A DNA stretch of 64,000 nt from Candidatus Coprousia avicola (lineage in GTDB: Bacteria; Actinomycetota; Coriobacteriia; Coriobacteriales; Coriobacteriaceae). Under the pieces are notes generated by a model, which was not told where the DNA came from, ran no database searches, and worked only from the letters and a program-made list of their open reading frames with translations. How positions within the stretch are numbered: the first letter of the stretch is position 1; every line of letters starts with the position of its first letter. The translations under genes and the position numbers were made by a program. Where the stretch lies: positions 1 through 64,000 of the forward strand of contig DVMF01000056.1 of assembly GCA_018715125.1 (NCBI GenBank), given 5' to 3'. Of this stretch, positions 1-56,907 are shown in pieces.

Positions 1-405
1 CCGATTTTTGAAGAGCTGTGGTATCGAGACCTCGGATTGTCCTCCCTCATGAATCTCGGTCTTTCTTTCAAACGCGCAAACGTTCTCCAGTCTTTGCTGT
101 TTGCATGTGCCCACCAGAGTATGCCGGAAAAGTTTCTCGGGTTTGCAGCGGGGTTGCTATTGGGGATGGTGAGGTTGAAAACAGGGCAGATATCATTTTG
201 TATTGTAGCCCACGGGGTGGTTAATTCGGATCTTGCCAATATTGGCGCGGCATTCATGTGTCAGGCTTTTTTAAAGGCTGGAGCTTTTACTGATACCCAA
301 GCTTCATCGGAAGCGCTTGTTGCTCCCGGTACACTCGCTTTTGCCGGCTTATTACTATTGATCGGTTTGTTATTGATATCTCCTCTTTGGAGAAAAAGGT
401 TATAG
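1..405 (+). CDS. CPBP family intramembrane metalloprotease, C-terminal part
   Basis: The reading frame is open from the first base, so the gene begins left of the window; 134 codons remain. The visible part starts with the EELWYR motif (EExxxR, CPBP motif 1), followed by FACAH (motif 2 His) and HGVVN (motif 3), with hydrophobic segments between them and at the C-terminus. These are the metal-binding signatures of CPBP (CAAX protease/bacteriocin-processing) membrane proteases. It ends 15 bp before a radical SAM maturase and an ABC exporter. In such settings CPBP proteins often act in bacteriocin processing or self-immunity; that role is inferred here. Base composition is clearly more AT-rich than most of the window. 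Confidence 0.8.
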   Translation, partial: PIFEELWYRDLGLSSLMNLGLSFKRANVLQSLLFACAHQSMPEKFLGFAAGLLLGMVRLKTGQISFCIVAHGVVNSDLANIGAAFMCQAFLKAGAFTDTQASSEALVAPGTLAFAGLLLLIGLLLISPLWRKRL

Positions 406-420
406 GTAGGGGGCTTTGCT

Positions 421-1710
421 TTGAAGCTATCAAAATACAACTGTGAAGTTGCATATGAAGATAAAGTAATTGTATCGAATTGCGCTAGCGGTGGTGCGCT
501 GTCGCTAAACGAAAAATATGCAAGGCAGCTTTTTTCAATGAAAACGTCAGGTAATATCGTCTGTCCGGAGTTGGCGGAAGAATTAGTGAAAGGGGGCATG
601 CTTGTAGAGGACGATTGTGACGAGTACGAAACCTTGCTTCTTAAGAGCAGAATCGCGCGATTTTCCAATTCTTTCCTTGCTCTTACCATTGCTCCCACAA
701 CAGCATGTAATTTCGCTTGCCCCTATTGCTACGAGAAAGGCCAAGCGTATGCAACCATGTCTGACGATGTTGAAGAAAGGCTATGTTCGTTTGTAAAGCA
801 AGAATTTCCTACAATAGGTCATCTTTCCGTATCGTGGTACGGAGGAGAGCCACTGCTGGGCATTGAGAGAATTGAGACTCTTACTGCGAAACTTAAGCAG
901 GCTATTCCAACTGAATGCGCATACTCTGCTTCGATTGTAACCAATGGCTTTCTGATGACTCCAGAAGTTGTGTCACGTTTGGCTGCATGTGAAGTCAAGT
1001 CGGCTCAAATAACGATAGACGGATCGAGAGCGAACCATGATATGCGAAGAGTTCTACATGGAGGCAAGCCGACGTACGATGCAATCGTGCGGAATATATG
1101 TGATTGTGCGGATGAAATTGGCATAACCATACGAGTGAACGTGGACAGAACAAACATCGGTGATGTTTCCGAGCTGCTCGAAGAACTTGAGAAGAACGAC
1201 CTTAATCGAAAAGTCGCAATCTATCTTGCTCTGGTGGACGACATTAACGAAACATGCCCAAACGATATTCACTGCATGACCGTTCAAGAGTTCTCTTCGA
1301 CTGAGACGGACTTCCTTCAGGAATTGATTCTGCGAGGGTTCTACGTTCAGCTAGTCCCAGCATGTAACTTATCAATTTGCGGTGCGGTCACACTCAATTC
1401 TTATGTTGTTGATCCAACAGGAGATTTATATAAATGCTGGGATGAGATTGGAATGAGAGAACGGCGAGTCGGCAGTGTGATGGATGGGGGCATATCCATG
1501 AACAAAAATCTGCTTCAATGGCTAAGTTATGAGCCACGGGACCAAGAGTGCGGCTCTTGTTTCGCTTTTCCAGTATGCCTAGGAGGCTGCCCGCATCACG
1601 CGCTTGAAGATAAGAGTAAATACTGCTCTACCCTACGGTATAACGCAGAGCAGCGTTTTCTTCTATCCGGGAAGTTGTATAAGCGAGCACGGGGCGGCTT
1701 TAATGTTTAG
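421..1710 (+). CDS. radical SAM/SPASM peptide maturase (RiPP-type)
   Basis: A 429-residue protein starting at TTG behind a purine-rich GGTAGGGGG. After an N-terminal domain of about 85 residues comes the radical SAM cluster motif CNFACPYC (Cys96, Cys100, Cys103) and GGEP-type glycines (WYGGEPLL). The C-terminal SPASM/twitch region has SICGAV, YKCWDE, ECGSCFAFPVCLGGCPHH and a last Cys, enough for auxiliary Fe-S clusters. The N-terminal LVxxGMLVEDDxDE pattern is typical of maturases that modify ribosomal peptides, using SAM to form thioether or C-C crosslinks. The exact modification cannot be read. No precursor peptide is visible in the window; it is probably upstream. The stop overlaps the start of the ABC exporter, so the two are translationally coupled. 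The gene is AT-rich, suggesting transfer. Confidence 0.85.
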   Translation: MKLSKYNCEVAYEDKVIVSNCASGGALSLNEKYARQLFSMKTSGNIVCPELAEELVKGGMLVEDDCDEYETLLLKSRIARFSNSFLALTIAPTTACNFACPYCYEKGQAYATMSDDVEERLCSFVKQEFPTIGHLSVSWYGGEPLLGIERIETLTAKLKQAIPTECAYSASIVTNGFLMTPEVVSRLAACEVKSAQITIDGSRANHDMRRVLHGGKPTYDAIVRNICDCADEIGITIRVNVDRTNIGDVSELLEELEKNDLNRKVAIYLALVDDINETCPNDIHCMTVQEFSSTETDFLQELILRGFYVQLVPACNLSICGAVTLNSYVVDPTGDLYKCWDEIGMRERRVGSVMDGGISMNKNLLQWLSYEPRDQECGSCFAFPVCLGGCPHHALEDKSKYCSTLRYNAEQRFLLSGKLYKRARGGFNV

Positions 1711-3322
1711 GCTTTGCATTAAGTACTTAAATAGAAACAGACTATTTTACCTGTATATTGTGGTAAATCTATTTTCGAGCATTATGATGCTTGCGCTCCC
1801 GTTTGTTACTGGGGTGGCAATAAGCCGGCTAACGGAGCCGGTTGTTGATCTGGCGGATGTGCTGCGTCCCTGCATAGCACTTTGTTTGATTGGTGTATTT
1901 CGGGCATTGTTATTGTTTATAGCGAATCGTCTGTATGTGAATGTGCAGGCTCATGCTGGATACAGACTGAACGCTGACGTTTTGGAGCACGTGCAGAAAC
2001 TGCCGCAGTCGTTCTTTGCTGCTTTCGATGCGGCTTATGCCAATCAGCAGATCAACCAAGATGCTAACAATTTGCTCATTTTCGCTATTACCTCTACAGT
2101 GCAGATCACGAGTAACGCCGTTTTGCTTATAGCAATAATATGGATTGTGTTTGCACAAAATATAACGCTAGGCAGCGTTTGCGTTGCCCTCGCATTCTGC
2201 AGTGGGTTGATGTATGTCCAATTTCGGCGGCGGTTGTTTTCCAAAAGCTTTTTAATGCGCGAGCAGCAATCTAAGTTTTTTTCAGACCTTCAGGCTCAAT
2301 TGGCCGATGTAGATTTCATTCGGCGTCATGCGTTGTTTAGACAATATCGAGCTCGCTTAGAAAAATCGTTTGGAAAGTTCTATCCTGCGGTACGAGACGC
2401 ACAAAAAGTAAACTTCCAGTTTGATTTGAGTAATTCGATTATCGCGGCACTTGCCCACGCAGCTTTGTTTTCAGTGGGAGTATTTGAGATAGTATCGGGA
2501 GACCTGCAGGTTGGTTTTCTGGTATCAGTAATGAGCTACTATGAAAGCCTGAGCAACTCTGTGCAGTTTTTTCTAACTTGGGGAAAATCGCTGCAGGAAA
2601 ATAGGGTGTGCTATGAGAGGCTTCGTCGAATCCTGGACATCAACGAGGAGGACAACGGAGAGAAAAGGATATCGTCTGTCACTAATATCGAGCTAGAAAA
2701 TGTCTCGTGCTCTTGGCAAGAAGGACAACCGCTGTTGCGGAATGTGTCGGTGCGGTTCGAAAAGGGCAAGCTTTATGGCATTGTGGGGGCAAATGGATGT
2801 GGAAAGAGCACGTTATTAGACGTCCTGTTAGGGTTGGGCCCTGGGAATAATACCGGAGTCGTTCGCTATGATGGAGTGGCGCTTCAAGAGGTTGATAAAT
2901 ACTACTTACGAGAAAACTGCGTTGGAATAACCGAGCAGGATTCGAAGATCATATCCGATTCTCTCCTGTCGAATCTTACGTTATTTTCAACGGATTTTGA
3001 CCGCGCTGCTCTTGATGAGTATTTGGATTTATTTGGTTTACGCAGCGTAGTTTGTAGCGTTTCCGACAGAACGGGGGCGCGCGACGACCAACGGGGACGT
3101 TTATCAGGTGGAGAAGAGCAGAAAATAGGCATTGTGCGACAACTCTTGCAGATGCCAGCAGTAATGCTGTTTGATGAGCCTACTTCCGCGCTGGATGCAA
3201 GGAGCCGCTCGTCGCTAACACAATTGCTTGTTAAGATGAAATCGCAAAGAATAATAATACTCGTATCTCATGATGAAGAACTTCTGAATGCATGCGATGT
3301 TGTTATTCCGTTAGATAGTTAA
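1703..3322 (+). CDS. ABC exporter, fused permease and ATPase
   Basis: A 539-residue half-transporter. The ATG at 1703 is chosen because it overlaps the end of the maturase gene (stop 1708-1710) and begins MFRLCIKYLNRN directly before the first membrane helix; upstream in-frame starts lie deep inside the maturase. Residues 1-300 form the transmembrane domain with about six helices. The nucleotide-binding domain has Walker A GANGCGKST, signature LSGGEEQK, Walker B AVMLFDEPTSALD and an H-loop His (VSHDEE). There is no N-terminal C39 peptidase domain, so it would export but not cleave a leader. Next to the maturase it most likely exports the modified peptide or gives self-protection (inference). 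Confidence 0.85.
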   Translation: MFRLCIKYLNRNRLFYLYIVVNLFSSIMMLALPFVTGVAISRLTEPVVDLADVLRPCIALCLIGVFRALLLFIANRLYVNVQAHAGYRLNADVLEHVQKLPQSFFAAFDAAYANQQINQDANNLLIFAITSTVQITSNAVLLIAIIWIVFAQNITLGSVCVALAFCSGLMYVQFRRRLFSKSFLMREQQSKFFSDLQAQLADVDFIRRHALFRQYRARLEKSFGKFYPAVRDAQKVNFQFDLSNSIIAALAHAALFSVGVFEIVSGDLQVGFLVSVMSYYESLSNSVQFFLTWGKSLQENRVCYERLRRILDINEEDNGEKRISSVTNIELENVSCSWQEGQPLLRNVSVRFEKGKLYGIVGANGCGKSTLLDVLLGLGPGNNTGVVRYDGVALQEVDKYYLRENCVGITEQDSKIISDSLLSNLTLFSTDFDRAALDEYLDLFGLRSVVCSVSDRTGARDDQRGRLSGGEEQKIGIVRQLLQMPAVMLFDEPTSALDARSRSSLTQLLVKMKSQRIIILVSHDEELLNACDVVIPLDS

Positions 3323-3429: not shown

Positions 3430-3999
3430 ATGGCTAGAAGTGCGGAACACATAAGAGATTCTCTGAATAGGATGCGTCAGCTTGGCAGTGCGCTGCGCAT
3501 GCTGTTCTCTGCGCTTATGATACTAACTGTGCTGCTTGCGGTTTGTGTGGTCATGATGGTTGCGCTGCAATTGATCAGGACGCAAGAGGCGGAGCTCGGT
3601 GGAATCATTTCTACGACGGGCGTTAGCTTGTACATCATTCCTGCTGTTTTGTGGCTTGCAATTGGATTATCCCTCGAAGGGATACTTCGGGATGTCAGCG
3701 ACGATATTGCAAGGGGGCAGTCTCCATTTACGGAACGGCATGCAACTAAAATTGCATGGTTGGGACTGCTATTCGTAGCAAATGCAATTGTTGCCTTGTT
3801 TTACCGGGGAGATGTGGGGGTCGATTTTGGTGCCTTCTATTTCTCCTATCGGCCTAGTCCGATGGTCCTTATTCTGGCGATTGGCGATGGGATTACGGTA
3901 GACATCGGTTCGCTTCTGGTTGCTTTAGTGTGTTTTTCCGTTGCGGCTATGTGGCGATATGCTTCGCTGCTACAGACGCAGTCCGACGACCTGGTCTAA
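3430..3999 (+). CDS. DUF2975 family membrane protein
   Basis: A 189-residue protein with four predicted membrane helices (about residues 20-45, 60-80, 110-130 and 155-180) and the motif DISRGxSPF-like DIARGQSPFTERHATKI after helix 2, as in DUF2975 proteins. Members of this family are regularly encoded beside a small Cro/C1-type regulator, and here such a gene follows 11 bp downstream. The pair is thought to sense an envelope signal, but the molecular function is unknown. It lies 107 bp after the ABC exporter on the same strand, with the same AT-rich composition. Confidence 0.7.
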   Translation: MARSAEHIRDSLNRMRQLGSALRMLFSALMILTVLLAVCVVMMVALQLIRTQEAELGGIISTTGVSLYIIPAVLWLAIGLSLEGILRDVSDDIARGQSPFTERHATKIAWLGLLFVANAIVALFYRGDVGVDFGAFYFSYRPSPMVLILAIGDGITVDIGSLLVALVCFSVAAMWRYASLLQTQSDDLV

Positions 4000-4010: not shown

Positions 4011-4337
4011 GTGGATTATCTCATCATTGAGCTGGAAGCACAGCTGCTAAAGGCGGGCAAAACGAGCGCGGATCTTATTCGCGTGACAGGCCATACTCCG
4101 GCTAACATCTCTAAGCTACGCAACGGCAAAATTAAGGCCATAAGACTTAAGACCCTATTGGACATCTGCATGGAGCTAGATTGTCAACCCGGTGATCTGA
4201 TTAAGCGCGTGAGCGAAGAAGAGCTGGATAACCTTGCGATTGAGCGAGCGCGTGCAAAGGTACGCTGTATGAAGGGGGACGAGACGGCGCAGCGGGTTCC
4301 TACTGCGGTGTATGCAGTAGATTTAAGTGATGAATAG
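4011..4337 (+). CDS. small XRE/Cro-C1 type transcriptional regulator
   Basis: A 108-residue protein. The GTG at 4011 is preferred because an AAGGGGAG ribosome binding site lies at 3998-4004, and longer in-frame readings would overlap the DUF2975 gene. The N-terminal 70 residues form a helix-turn-helix of the HTH_26/YozG kind: LLKAGKTSADLIRVTGHTP, then SKLRNGKIKAIRLKTLLDIC and LDCQPGDLI. The C-terminal 35 residues are charged and unlike known domains. Pairing with the upstream DUF2975 gene is typical and suggests that the two act together as a membrane-linked regulator. Its target is not visible. Confidence 0.75.
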   Translation: MDYLIIELEAQLLKAGKTSADLIRVTGHTPANISKLRNGKIKAIRLKTLLDICMELDCQPGDLIKRVSEEELDNLAIERARAKVRCMKGDETAQRVPTAVYAVDLSDE

Positions 4338-4390: not shown

Positions 4391-4450
4391 GCTCGCCACT
4401 CTCGATGAAACAGTATTCGCACGCACGCTCATGGGTAAAGAGCTACTCGG
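4391..4450 (+). pseudogene. possible remnant of a small gene
   Basis: The frame starting near 4410 reads TLDETVFARTLMGKELLGEE and then hits a stop. The string FARTLMGKELL resembles the N-terminus of Rpn/PD-(D/E)XK nuclease-like transposase proteins, but only about 20 codons survive, with no start codon or ribosome binding site. It lies in the AT-rich junction between the XRE regulator and the ATPase gene. Recognition is weak and may be chance. Confidence 0.2.
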
Positions 4451-4533
4451 CGAAGAGGTTCCTTGAGCTGTTCCCGGCGCGCGGCGAGGACGTGCGGGAA
4501 AGCGGGTTAGTATAGGTTCAAATAATATAAAAC

Positions 4534-6170: not shown

Positions 6171-6749
6171 ATGCAAGACGACAGACAGGAAGCGGCACCG
6201 ACGGGCGCGTCGCAAGCGGAGGATTTCAGCAGCTACCGCATGCTGCTCTTTAGGGCGAGCCATGCTCAAAAGCAGCTGCTGCATCCCTATATGGCGCGTA
6301 TCGGACTGGGTACCGGCCAGCCCAAGCTCTTAAGCTATCTTGCCGAGCATGGCTCGTGCACGGCGCGGGAGCTTGCCGATTTCTACGAGCTCGATCCGGC
6401 GGGCGTCTCTCGCATGCTCGACGCGCTCGCCCGCAAGGACTTTGTGACATTCGCTCCGCACGAGGGAGATAGGCGCTGCAAGATGGTGCAGCTTACGGCG
6501 GAGGGCGCCCGCGTCGCCCGTGCCTGGAACGCCGCCTGCAACGAGGAGGCGCACGCCATGCTCGCTGGCTTTACGCCTGAAGAGCGCGAGGCCTTTGCCG
6601 GCTTCCTGCGCCGCGCACACGCTAATCTTCGCGCGTACGGGCAACGGCTTTCGGCGTCGGCGACGGAGGGCCGCGTGGCGGGGCGCGGTGCCGCAGGCTC
6701 CGGGGCGTCATCAGACGCCGCCGCAGGGGAGGGGACCGCCCATGCATGA
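6171..6749 (+). CDS. MarR family transcriptional regulator
   Basis: A 192-residue protein. Residues 20-150 form a MarR winged helix: helices around LLSYLAEHGSCTARELADFY, recognition region DPAGVSRMLDALARKDFV and wing PHEGDRRCKMVQLTAEG. The N-terminal 20 and C-terminal 40 residues are Ala/Gly-rich and probably disordered. The stop codon (6747-6749) overlaps the start of the downstream ABC exporter gene, so the regulator and the two transporter halves form one operon. A palindromic operator lies directly upstream. By analogy it represses the exporter until a toxic ligand binds. Confidence 0.88.
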   Translation: MQDDRQEAAPTGASQAEDFSSYRMLLFRASHAQKQLLHPYMARIGLGTGQPKLLSYLAEHGSCTARELADFYELDPAGVSRMLDALARKDFVTFAPHEGDRRCKMVQLTAEGARVARAWNAACNEEAHAMLAGFTPEEREAFAGFLRRAHANLRAYGQRLSASATEGRVAGRGAAGSGASSDAAAGEGTAHA

Positions 6750-8604
6750 GATCGGACGCATCGTCTCCTATCTGGGGCACTACCGCAAAGATGCCATCCT
6801 CGGTATGCTGCTCGTGGTGATCGAGAGCGCCTTTGAGATGGTCATCCCCATCCTCATGGCGGACATCATTGACGTTGGCGTTGCCCGGCGCGACCTCGCC
6901 TACATCACCCGTCAGGGCATGCTCATGGGCGTATGCGCCATCCTCGCCCTCATCACCGGGCTTCTCTATGCGCGCTATGCCGCCCGCGCCTCGTACGGCT
7001 TGGGGGCGCACCTGCGCGCCGCTGAGTACGAGCGCGTACAGGAGTACTCGTTTGCAAACCTCGATCACTTTGAGACGTCATCGCTCATCACACGTATGAC
7101 CACCGACGTAACCGTCATCCAAAACGCCCTCAACGCAGGCTTTCGCCCCATGGTGCGAGGGCCGGTGATGCTCGTCATCGGCTTTGCGCTCGCGTTTTAC
7201 CTCAACGCGGAGCTCGCGCTGGTGTTTTGCGCCGTGGTGCCGGTCATGGTGATCGCCATCGTGTTGATCGTTCGCCGCGTGAGCCCGCTGTACAGCGTGC
7301 TGCAGGCCACGGTCGACAAGCTGAACGATGTGGTACAGGAGATGCTCACGGCGGTCCGCGCGGTCAAGGCCTATGTGCGCGGCGACTATGAGTGCGAGGA
7401 GTTTCGGCGCGTCAACGAGGGACTCGCCGCTACGAGCGAGCGGACGTTTCGTCTTGCGGTCTTCAACATGCCCGTACTCTACGTTTCCATGTACACGGCG
7501 ACGACTCTCATCATGTGGTTTGGCGGGCAGATGATCTTGGGCGGGACCTTGGCCGTGGGCGAGCTCACGGGCTTTCTGTCGTACGTGCTTCAGATCTTGA
7601 ACTCGCTCATCATGATTTCCAACGTGTTTTTGCTACTCACGCGCTCGCTCGCGAGCGTACACCGCATCTCGGAGGTGTTGGACGAAAAGATCGACCTCAC
7701 CTCGCCGGAAGATGCGCTCGAGACGGTGGCCGACGGCTCGGTGCGCTTTGAGGACGTCTCGTTCAAGTACCGTGCCGACGCGGCCGAGTATGTGCTCGAG
7801 CATATCTCTCTAAACATTCCCGCCGGTACGACGGTGGGCATTCTGGGGGGCACGGGGTCGGGCAAGACTACGCTCGTGCAGCTCATCCCGCGTCTGTACG
7901 ATGCGAGCGCAGGGCGGGTGCTCGTGGGCGGCCAAGACGTGCGCGCCTACGACGTGGCGGCGCTGCGCGATGCCGTGGCCATCGTGCTCCAGAAAAACGT
8001 GTTGTTCTCGGGCACCGTGCGCGAGAACCTGCGCTGGGGCAACCCCAAGGCGACCGACGAGGAGCTGCTCGAAGCATGTCGCCGGGCGCGGGTGGACGAG
8101 TTTTTGGACCGCTTGCCGGGAGGTCTCGACTACGACCTCGGGCAAGGCGGCGTCAACGTGTCCGGCGGGCAGAAGCAGCGCCTGTGCATCGCCCGTGCTC
8201 TCCTCAAGCACCCGAAGGTGGTCATTTTCGACGACTCCACGAGTGCGGTGGATATGGCCACCGACGCGCAGATTCGCGCAGCACTCGCCGAGCTCACCGG
8301 CGTAACCAAGATCATCATCGCGCAGCGCGTCAACTCGGTGGAGGACGCCGATCAGATCGTGGTGCTCGACGATGGGCGCGTCGACGCGGTGGGCACGCAT
8401 GACGAGCTGCTCGCCACCTGCGAGATCTACCGCGAGATCTACACCTCGCAGCAATATGCCGCATTGGGGGACGGGGTCGTTTCACGCACCGTTGCCGCAT
8501 CTGGGGACGGGGTCGATTCATGCACTTCCGTCGCCGCATGTAGCCAGGCCGTGCCGGTGCCCGTCGCCTCAGGAGCGGTACCCGCGAAGGGAGGTGAGCG
8601 CTGA
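6742..8604 (+). CDS. heterodimeric multidrug-type ABC exporter, degenerate-site subunit
   Basis: A 620-residue half-transporter. The ATG at 6742 follows AGGGGAGGGG and overlaps the MarR stop; it begins MHEIGRIVSYLGHY before the first helix. The transmembrane domain spans about residues 15-310. The nucleotide-binding domain has Walker A GGTGSGKTT, signature VSGGQKQR and Walker B VVIFDDSTSAVD. Here Asp replaces the catalytic Glu and the H-loop reads IIIAQRVNS, with Gln for His. That is the degenerate site known from heterodimeric exporters such as TM287/288, so it needs the partner encoded next. The last 50 residues come from an imperfect tandem repeat and are not part of the family fold. Confidence 0.88.
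   Translation: MHEIGRIVSYLGHYRKDAILGMLLVVIESAFEMVIPILMADIIDVGVARRDLAYITRQGMLMGVCAILALITGLLYARYAARASYGLGAHLRAAEYERVQEYSFANLDHFETSSLITRMTTDVTVIQNALNAGFRPMVRGPVMLVIGFALAFYLNAELALVFCAVVPVMVIAIVLIVRRVSPLYSVLQATVDKLNDVVQEMLTAVRAVKAYVRGDYECEEFRRVNEGLAATSERTFRLAVFNMPVLYVSMYTATTLIMWFGGQMILGGTLAVGELTGFLSYVLQILNSLIMISNVFLLLTRSLASVHRISEVLDEKIDLTSPEDALETVADGSVRFEDVSFKYRADAAEYVLEHISLNIPAGTTVGILGGTGSGKTTLVQLIPRLYDASAGRVLVGGQDVRAYDVAALRDAVAIVLQKNVLFSGTVRENLRWGNPKATDEELLEACRRARVDEFLDRLPGGLDYDLGQGGVNVSGGQKQRLCIARALLKHPKVVIFDDSTSAVDMATDAQIRAALAELTGVTKIIIAQRVNSVEDADQIVVLDDGRVDAVGTHDELLATCEIYREIYTSQQYAALGDGVVSRTVAASGDGVDSCTSVAACSQAVPVPVASGAVPAKGGER
8458..8540. repeat. imperfect tandem repeat in the 3' end of the exporter gene
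   Basis: Two units, 8458-8493 and 8494-8532, each begin GCCGCAT and contain GGGGACGGGGTCG followed by TTTCACGCA or ATTCATGCA; a third GCCGCATG starts at 8533. The GGGGACGGGGTCGAT string recurs in the intergenic repeat at 35.98 kb. The units encode most of the unusual C-terminal tail of the exporter subunit. Confidence 0.7.
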
Positions 8605-10628
8605 TGCCCGCACCCGGAAACAAGCCCAAGAACCTGCTTGCTACGCTGCGCGAGCTTCTCGCGTACCTCGGCAGGCACAAGCTGCTCTTTTTGGCGGTTG
8701 CCCTCATGGTGGCCGTCTCGGCTGTCGCCAACCTCGTCGGCACCTATATGATCCGCCCCGTGGTGGATGCGCTCGCGGCGGGCGACTACACGGCTTTTGT
8801 CAAGAACATCCTGCTTACGGCTGCCATCTACCTGGTCGGCGTGCTGGCGACCTTCGGTTACACGCAGACGATGGTGCATGCCGGGCAGAAGGTGCTCGTC
8901 GATATCCGCCGCGACCTCTTTGCCCACATCCAGACGTTGCCGCTCCGCTATTTCGATACGCGCAGCCGCGGTGACATCATGAGTTACTTCACCAACGACG
9001 TCGACACCGTGGCCGAGGCCATGAACAACAGTTTCGCCATGGTCATCCAGAGCTTCATCCAGATCGTCGGCACGCTCACCATGATCTTCATCCTTAACTG
9101 GCAGCTGTCGCTCATCGTGGTGGTGGGCTACGCCGTCATGTTTGCCTACATCTCGTTCTCCACGCGCCGGAGCCGCCGCTACTTCCAAAAGCAGCAGGCG
9201 GTCCTCGGCGAGCTCGACGGCTACGTGGAGGAGATGGTCACGGGTCAGAAGGTTGTAAAGGTATTCAACCACGAGAGCGCCAACGTGGCGACGTTTGGCG
9301 ATAAGAACGAGCAGCTGCGCGTGGCGGGCACCGGGGCGCAGGCGTATGCCGCGTCGATGATTCCCGCGGTCGTCTCGATCAGCTACGTCAACTACGCCAT
9401 CGTCGCCGCCGTGGGCGGCTGGATGGCCATCGCCGGGCTGACCGACGTGGGCGCGCTCGCGAGCTACCTCGTGTTTGTGCGCCAGACCGCCATGCCCATC
9501 AATCAGTTCACCCAGCAGTCGAACTTCCTGCTCTCAGCGCTCGCGGGCGCGGAGCGCGTCTTTGCTGCCATGCGTGAAAAGCCCGAGGTCGACGAGGGCC
9601 GCGTGGCGCTCGAGCAGACGGGTAAGGGCTCATGGGAGTGGCGCATCCCCGCAGGCTTGGGTGTTGGCGCCTGGGGCTCGCTTGTCGAGGTCGCCCCGGA
9701 GGAGGGGGCGGCGCCCCGGCCGGCCGCCGGTAGCGAGGACTTTGCCGCGGGGCGGACGGCCTCCGGGGATTCCGACCAGGCAGCGCCCGCGTTTGCGAAG
9801 CAGACCGCGCCCGCGGCGCTCGAGGCGGGCGCCCAGGTTGGGGCGACTGCGCGCGGCGTCGACGGGACAGTCCTCGCGGTGGGCTCGCTGCCGCTTTGCG
9901 GCGACGTGCGCTTCCATAACGTGAGCTTTGGGTACGAGCCCGGCCACGAGGTGCTCCACGACATCAACCTGTTTGCGAAGCCGGGGCAGACCATCGCGTT
10001 TGTGGGGTCGACGGGCGCCGGCAAGACGACCATCACCAACCTCATCAACCGCTTCTACGACGTGCAGACCGGCGAGATCACCTTCGACGGCATCAACGTC
10101 AAGAACATCGAGAAGGACTCGCTGCGCCGCTCGCTCGGCATCGTGCTGCAGGACACGCATCTGTTTACGGGCACCATCGCAGATAACATTCGCTTCGGCA
10201 AACTCGACGCCACCGACGAGGAGGTGCGCGCGGCGGCTCGGATCGCCAACGCGGATAGCTTCATCCGTCGCCTGCCGCGCGGGTACGACACCATGGTCAC
10301 CTCGGACGGCGCGAACCTCTCCCAAGGCCAGCGCCAGCTCCTCGCCATCGCGCGCGCCGCGGTGGCCGATCCGCCGGTGCTGATCTTGGACGAGGCGACC
10401 TCCTCGATCGACACGCGCACCGAGATGCTCATCAGCCGCGGCATGAAGCAGCTCATGGAGGGGCGCACCACGTTTATGATCGCGCATCGCCTCTCCACCG
10501 TGCGCGATGCCGACGCCATCATGGTGCTCGATCACGGGCGCATCATCGAGCGCGGCACGCACGAGGAGCTCTACGCGCTCGGCGGGACCTATTGGGAACT
10601 CTGCCAGGGTCTGAAGGAGCTCGACTGA
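8604..10628 (+). CDS. heterodimeric multidrug-type ABC exporter, consensus-site subunit
   Basis: A 674-residue half-transporter whose ATG overlaps the preceding stop (TGATG). The transmembrane domain covers about residues 15-320. The nucleotide-binding domain has Walker A GSTGAGKTT, signature LSQGQRQ, Walker B PVLILDEATSSID with the catalytic Glu, and an H-loop His (MIAHRLST). It therefore supplies the hydrolysing site, complementing the degenerate upstream partner. Between the two domains, about 9597-9900, lies an Ala/Gly/Pro-rich insertion of roughly 90 residues not found in ordinary family members. Export substrate is unknown; control by the upstream MarR protein points to drugs or other toxic compounds. 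Confidence 0.88.
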   Translation: MPAPGNKPKNLLATLRELLAYLGRHKLLFLAVALMVAVSAVANLVGTYMIRPVVDALAAGDYTAFVKNILLTAAIYLVGVLATFGYTQTMVHAGQKVLVDIRRDLFAHIQTLPLRYFDTRSRGDIMSYFTNDVDTVAEAMNNSFAMVIQSFIQIVGTLTMIFILNWQLSLIVVVGYAVMFAYISFSTRRSRRYFQKQQAVLGELDGYVEEMVTGQKVVKVFNHESANVATFGDKNEQLRVAGTGAQAYAASMIPAVVSISYVNYAIVAAVGGWMAIAGLTDVGALASYLVFVRQTAMPINQFTQQSNFLLSALAGAERVFAAMREKPEVDEGRVALEQTGKGSWEWRIPAGLGVGAWGSLVEVAPEEGAAPRPAAGSEDFAAGRTASGDSDQAAPAFAKQTAPAALEAGAQVGATARGVDGTVLAVGSLPLCGDVRFHNVSFGYEPGHEVLHDINLFAKPGQTIAFVGSTGAGKTTITNLINRFYDVQTGEITFDGINVKNIEKDSLRRSLGIVLQDTHLFTGTIADNIRFGKLDATDEEVRAAARIANADSFIRRLPRGYDTMVTSDGANLSQGQRQLLAIARAAVADPPVLILDEATSSIDTRTEMLISRGMKQLMEGRTTFMIAHRLSTVRDADAIMVLDHGRIIERGTHEELYALGGTYWELCQGLKELD

Positions 10629-56539: not shown

Positions 56540-56907
56540 TGGTGGAGGCGCGGAGAATCGAACTCCGGTCCACGAAAGCCCCCTGATCGGCATCTCCAGG
56601 CTCAGTCGCTGGTTTGATCTCGGACGCGTTGCGCGCAGCGACACGCTCGCGGCATCCCAACCGGTTCGGTCTTAGCCCGCGCCATACCGATTACGTGCGC
56701 GGGAGCATTCCCCTGAAATGACACCGCACCCGGGGCGGGGAAATCCCGGGATTGGCGTGCCAGCTATAAACTAAGCGGCAAGAGCCAGCTGGGGCTCGTA
56801 AGAAGAGTTCTTGTCAATTCATTTTGACGGTACCCCTGTTTAACGTGGCGAGGAGACCACGGCCTGCTTCCTCTCTCAGAGCTATCGCGTCGAAACCAGT
56901 CGCCCCC
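56540..56907 (-). ncRNA. ssrA: transfer-messenger RNA (tmRNA)
   Basis: A 368-base RNA. The 5' end GGGGGCGACTGGTTTCGACG and 3' end GGAGTTCGATTCTCCGC...CCTCCACCA form the tRNA-like domain: acceptor stem GGGGGCG with CGCCTCC, T-arm CGGAG/CTCCG, and encoded CCA. The tag frame runs 56815 down to 56771 and reads DKNSSYEPQLALAA followed by TAG. It rescues ribosomes stalled on broken messages, with SmpB (not in the window), and the LALAA ending targets the tagged protein to ClpXP-type proteases. A promoter lies upstream and a strong terminator downstream. Confidence 0.97.

Follow-up and report, generated by a model that had tools for sequence, protein, structure and literature searches.

A probable radical SAM peptide operon in Candidatus Coprousia avicola, divided between two contigs

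At its left edge, the DNA stretch analysed here (64,000 nucleotides of Candidatus Coprousia avicola, contig DVMF01000056.1, in the following the window) carries on the plus strand, within positions 1-3322, the end of a gene for a CPBP protein, a complete gene for a radical SAM/SPASM maturase and a gene for an ABC exporter without a peptidase domain (Table 1). This arrangement raises the question of whether a modified peptide is produced from the locus and, if so, where its precursor is encoded and what the CPBP protein contributes. The original prediction, derived from the sequence letters alone, was a RiPP-type cassette of three adjacent genes, cut by the window edge and with its precursor further upstream. 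All three genes are present at the predicted place and on the same strand. Window base 1 is the end of contig C32 in an assembly of 93 contigs (2.42 Mb), and the CPBP frame is open at this base, so that the cassette is indeed cut. The CPBP motifs were found as EELWYR, FACAH and HGVVN, and CNFACPYC at maturase residue 96 is accompanied by a complete seven-cysteine SPASM pattern. Pfam lists ABC_membrane and ABC_tran for the exporter, but no peptidase domain. Its longest frame begins at TTG 1604; comparison with the point where the C. aerofaciens protein begins makes ATG 1703 the likelier start. From there, gene and maturase stop share 8 nt, an arrangement also found in the C. aerofaciens locus L011 and in agreement with the overlap noted originally. 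Assignment to a gut actinobacterium also fits, since the relatives include Collinsella aerofaciens, which is assigned to the same family. The G+C content is 0.457 over window 1-3322 versus 0.644 over 6171-64000. No precursor gene had been seen in the window, and a scan of the plus strand from 1 to about 6,700 for small cysteine-containing frames behind a Shine-Dalgarno sequence (SD-plus-Cys scan) detected none.

Table 1. Features of the cassette and its right flank in the window
Feature	Position	Strand	Remarks
CPBP (Rce1-like) membrane protein, C-terminal 134 codons	1..405	+	Motifs EExxxR, FxxxH, HxxxN; N-terminal part on contig C54
Radical SAM/SPASM peptide maturase, 429 aa	421..1710	+	CX3CX2C at 96-103, SPASM cysteines 320-402
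ABC exporter, permease and ATPase, 539 aa from ATG 1703	1703..3322	+	No peptidase domain
Membrane protein, no Pfam family match	3430..3999	+	Linked to cassette
Cro/CI-type HTH_26 regulator, forming a pair with the membrane protein above	4011..4337	+	Probable regulator
Short fragment with an 85% repeat on C54 (reverse complement, 1498-1580), on the far side of the cassette	4404..4490	+	

To find the missing part of the cassette, an open hydrophobic frame was sought at contig starts, which covered 60 of the other 92 contigs, and at the ends of those contigs that had been fetched whole. Contig C54, read backwards, ends in such a frame (...VVACLVAPIF) and in the same ten bases as window positions 1-10; overlaps of 0-2 bases were obtained for the other 59 of the 60 contig starts compared. 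Joining the two sequences yields a CPBP frame of 331 codons from a GTG, the true start probably lying about 9-26 codons inside this frame. The joined protein scores 60.7 bits with PF02517 over profile positions 5-91, compared to 50.4 bits (cut-off 22.4) over positions 16-91 for the part in the window. On C54, the end of ligA is located just before the cassette. In all five genus relatives with more than 1 kb of sequence downstream of ligA, homologues (81-90%) of window 6520-10628 were found 3.5 to 6.5 kb past this gene; a sixth ligA locus, ending after 950 bases, is outside this count. Because overlap, reading frame, Pfam profile and synteny agree, C54 was considered to adjoin the window edge.

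The small precursor that had been predicted upstream is represented by a candidate on C54 (649-762, minus strand), an ORF of 37 aa starting with ATG and preceded by AAGGAGG. Its translation is MEWYMLPQGGGGGTCTAYCRSFDPCIAKNICYIRVSI. In the joined region it was the sole match of the SD-plus-Cys scan, the background being three matches per 54 kb on both strands. This precursor was found by position, not by sequence similarity: neither the C. aerofaciens precursor nor a profile from seven precursors gave a match in searches of the own genome, and of two leader-pattern searches of this genome the first yielded nothing and the second four matches, all rejected on translation. The N-terminus, MEWYMLP, is outside both leader patterns used. 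In local alignments with the precursors of the Collinsella loci L011 and L110, none of 2000 shuffles was as good; alignments with the other five precursors were weaker, 41 to 876 of 2000 shuffles being as good. The corresponding ORFs of the relatives, the recurrent ones carrying ribosome-binding sites, have a common start, M-x-[WY]-[IV] with an early proline. After the initial M, members of the precursor family show W or Y at position 3 and proline around position 7, and they have two or more cysteine columns in common; M, P, C and C are invariant in the alignment. Four cysteines (C15, C19, C25, C31) are present in the precursor of the joined locus, six or more in most of its relatives, and Tyr, Phe, Asn and Asp also occur in its core. 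The gap between the precursor and CPBP genes contains a hairpin of 12 pairs (z -4.1 for a stretch of 140 nt), and strong stem-loops 3' of the precursor were also detected in L011, L108 and L110, but not in L092. A promoter-like site in front of the precursor was dismissed as no better than chance (one found, 1.7 expected). A complete RiPP operon that is split by a contig end is the main reading of the locus, to which a probability of about 0.75 is given.

Of what kind is the maturase? It clearly matched the SPASM model TIGR04085 (57.1 bits, cut-off 27), but no specific peptide-maturase model was above its cut-off among the best 25 models listed. Highest scores were obtained with TIGR04463 (278.1 bits, residues 13-413, cut-off 525), the Clo7bot maturase model TIGR04334 (262.0 bits, cut-off 600) and the CefB model (225.5 bits, cut-off 600). 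The motifs CX3CX2C and CX2CX5CX3C are present in the window maturase and in all nine relatives checked, and the seven-cysteine SPASM pattern is complete in the window and in eight of these nine, L119 lacking the first SPASM part. In a tree of 33 maturases, which contains several long branches and leaves the deep forks open, the window sequence groups with Collinsella L108 and L011 (98/88) inside a coriobacterial clade of nine rows (96/99). The Clo7bot clade (ten rows, 100/98, among them one coriobacterial row, L120) is separate from it. The predicted structure (mean pLDDT 88.8, pTM 0.87) has an N-terminal domain at residues 1-80 with the element order b-b-b-a-a-a, which we take to be that of an RRE (PqqD-like topology). 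CteB ranked first in a Foldseek search and is also the nearest solved sequence (124.2 bits).

It is conceivable that the maturase modifies proteins, as sulfatase activators do, and that the small ORF occurs by chance. Anaerobic sulfatase maturases are second by sequence (98 bits), and by structural Z score they tie with CteB (28.6 versus 28.0, the latter over 394 residues). The alignment with CteB, however, covers model residues 4-420 and thus includes the N-terminal domain, while that with the sulfatase maturases covers 84-423, and the sulfatase maturase model TIGR03942 reaches only 73.3 bits (cut-off 349.45) as opposed to 278.1 and 262.0 bits for the peptide-maturase models. In addition, precursors with ribosome-binding sites recur. 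Identity with a sulfatase activator, which had been named as an outcome speaking against the cassette, was rejected on model scores and structural alignment and is considered highly improbable.

The chemistry of the product is less certain. Maturases with other activities, SuiB, TigE, ChlB and PqqE, are among the structural matches and share the fold, and the core has Tyr, Phe, Asn and Asp besides its cysteines; carbon-carbon or ether cross-links or epimerisation might be introduced in place of thioethers. It is the cysteines, however, that the precursors have in common, and CteB is the closest solved sequence; products without thioethers are regarded as rather unlikely.

At E 1e-40, the maturase was detected in nine of 65 genomes of the family, the own genome included, and at E 1e-60 in 13 of 395 genomes of the order; within the own genus, a single genome out of nine contains it. 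Absence of a small precursor gene from all relatives would have spoken against the prediction, but precursors are present in six of twelve order-level relatives, four of which also contain a three-gene ABC set and the other two a CPBP gene. The gene order in C. aerofaciens L011 is membrane protein, HTH regulator, precursor (42 aa, six cysteines), ABC ATPase, two membrane proteins, maturase and exporter. The same order was found in G066 with one precursor and in G070 and G080 with two, whereas G035 and G071 contain two precursors followed by maturase, exporter and CPBP. For five of the twelve (G073, G202, G135, G386, G138) the SD-plus-Cys scan revealed no precursor on the maturase strand, and the locus of G063 is cut at a contig end. 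The three-gene ABC set occurs in the loci L011, L108, L109 and L110 and is presumably LanFEG-like. This label is based on the order and the size of the genes, because the two membrane proteins of the L011 set have no Pfam family over the cut-off. CPBP genes are part of the cassette in the window, L092 and L113 only. Accordingly, in a Pfam census over 23 genomes, from which rows outside the order were left out as they could not be linked to maturase contigs, PF02517 was near the maturase in only the two CPBP-bearing relatives among the twelve order-level genomes. A census of 89 loci with regular expressions for the CPBP motifs was discarded, its sole match not being CPBP and the Pfam-positive L092 being missed. 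A viral collection contained one distant maturase match and plasmids gave 129 records, all below 60% identity and including some Clo7bot maturases; no close relative was found in either. In L016, L019, L021 and L029 (Clostridia, Paraclostridium), Clo7bot-like precursor ORFs form tandem arrays of as many as ten members upstream of the maturase.

In bacteriocin loci, CPBP proteins of the Ski/PlnI type confer immunity. Self-protection is also the more likely function of CPBP in the cassette, as judged from sequence comparison, since the ABC set replaces CPBP elsewhere and the CPBP copies of the two Collinsella cassettes are devoid of the catalytic histidines; both lack FxxxH and HxxxN, and one has no histidine at all. 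Within the same operon, CPBP might act as a leader peptidase or signal-peptide peptidase and not in immunity. The joined protein has all three motifs intact, and the exporter has no peptidase domain. There is also a precedent for a peptidase role apart from immunity, SilX of S. anginosus, a CAAX protease which an excerpt of PMC9298176 implicates in signal-peptide processing, with a mutant that was not bacteriocin-sensitive. Four of the six precursor-bearing relatives, however, retain precursor, maturase and exporter with no PF02517 near the maturase, and the histidines are missing in both relatives that do have CPBP. A peptidase role is accordingly a tentative alternative, and self-protection is favoured over leader cleavage.

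The region into which the cassette is inserted was compared in related genomes. The gap between ligA and the MarR/ABC genes (L206-L210) contains differing genes across species of the genus and represents a variable gene-insertion site. Low G+C content, presence in a single genome out of nine and the differing gap contents in relatives point to a gain of the cassette by transfer into this site. Three short related fragments flank the cassette, the one listed in Table 1 and two on C54 (reverse complement 1173-1280 and 1466-1580). They are perhaps tails of PIN-type genes, as if insertion or deletion had occurred repeatedly. Origin of the repeat from a PIN toxin was judged weak, as similarity to a PIN_3 protein (E 2e-4) was found for one C54 fragment and not for the window fragment. 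The membrane protein next to the exporter, which we assume to be DUF2975-like, forms with the HTH regulator a pair that is located downstream of the exporter in the window and upstream of the precursor in the four Collinsella loci with the ABC set. In the cassette-free genome G005 the pair directly follows ligA, its HTH protein being 88% identical. The pair may therefore be a component of the insertion site and not of the cassette. Elsewhere in the same genome, a repeated translated motif (FNPRTREGCD; contig C6, L131 1369-1638) suggests a CRISPR array. A tmRNA was predicted on the minus strand of the window (56540-56907); its tag peptide is long and unusual, and the prediction may be false or mis-framed.

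From these data, the genes at the left edge very probably encode a pathway by which a small peptide with cysteines is made, cross-linked and exported. A short leader (M-x-W-[IVY]-x-x-P) would be bound by the N-terminal domain of the maturase, which would employ a SAM cluster together with two auxiliary ones to form thioethers from C15, C19, C25 and C31 of the core. The ABC exporter would secrete the peptide, and the very short leader could be lost through some other peptidase or be kept. The producer would be protected by CPBP, or in the Collinsella cassettes by the ABC set of the LanFEG kind in its place, and the operon is probably regulated by the membrane protein/HTH pair 3' of the exporter. 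Most likely, the product is an antibacterial peptide directed against close relatives. A signal or metal-binding peptide would be compatible with the adjoining regulatory pair, and a title cited in PMC8326336 connects SCIFF-derived ranthipeptides to quorum sensing in clostridia; the LanFEG-like set in place of CPBP in four relatives fits self-protection, and the patchy occurrence in the genus also argues against this alternative, which appears rather unlikely.

To our knowledge, very few peptide antibiotics have been described from Coriobacteriia that are common in the gut, and full-text literature searches, judged by word matches, yielded no paper on a Collinsella radical SAM peptide of this type. 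With its tiny leader, the short and easily expressed precursor-maturase pair offers a test of the minimum leader for a SPASM maturase, and the cassettes provide a natural comparison of CPBP and the ABC set as means of self-protection.

Searches of the literature for Clo7bot, the model accessions and combinations with Collinsella or CPBP revealed no paper on the cassette system. A separate coriobacterial RiPP class is possible but doubtful. It would be defined by maturases of very small peptides, whose leader of 8-14 residues begins with the recognition tag M-x-W-[IV]-x-x-P, by exchangeable modules for self-protection (either a LanFEG-like ABC set or a CPBP protein that can function even when its catalytic histidines are missing) and by an undescribed cross-link pattern of four cysteines. 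Among known systems, Clo7bot (TIGR04333/TIGR04334) shares a short, cysteine-rich peptide, whose leader is a dozen residues long and starts M-x-aromatic-[IV]-x-[KE]-P, and an adjoining SPASM maturase, which is 31-36% identical; TIGR04334 is matched over residues 50-412. The window maturase differs in its score, 262 bits against the 600-bit cut-off, and in its separate clade, and cassettes of its kind have single or paired precursors, not arrays. With TIGR04333, the window precursor gave no match at E 10 and that of L011 9.8 bits (cut-off 31), while precursors of the loci L019 and L029, used as positive controls, reached 36.4 and 47.9 bits. Maturases of TIGR04463 provide the best model, but its cut-off is far from being reached. 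SCIFF peptides, in which non-alpha thioethers are known according to an excerpt of PMC8326336, are modified by enzymes such as CteB (PDB 5wgg, 5why), the nearest solved sequence and a full-length structural match; identity is only about 20%, the SCIFF model TIGR03974 gives 87.8 bits (cut-off 425), and the window precursor is without the SCIFF six-cysteine pattern. As in bacteriocin loci with CAAX/CPBP proteins such as SilX, a CPBP gene is located in a peptide locus, its catalytic motifs being intact in the window and incomplete in the two Collinsella copies. By these comparisons, the cassette represents a new branch, found in Coriobacteriia, of an already known type of system.
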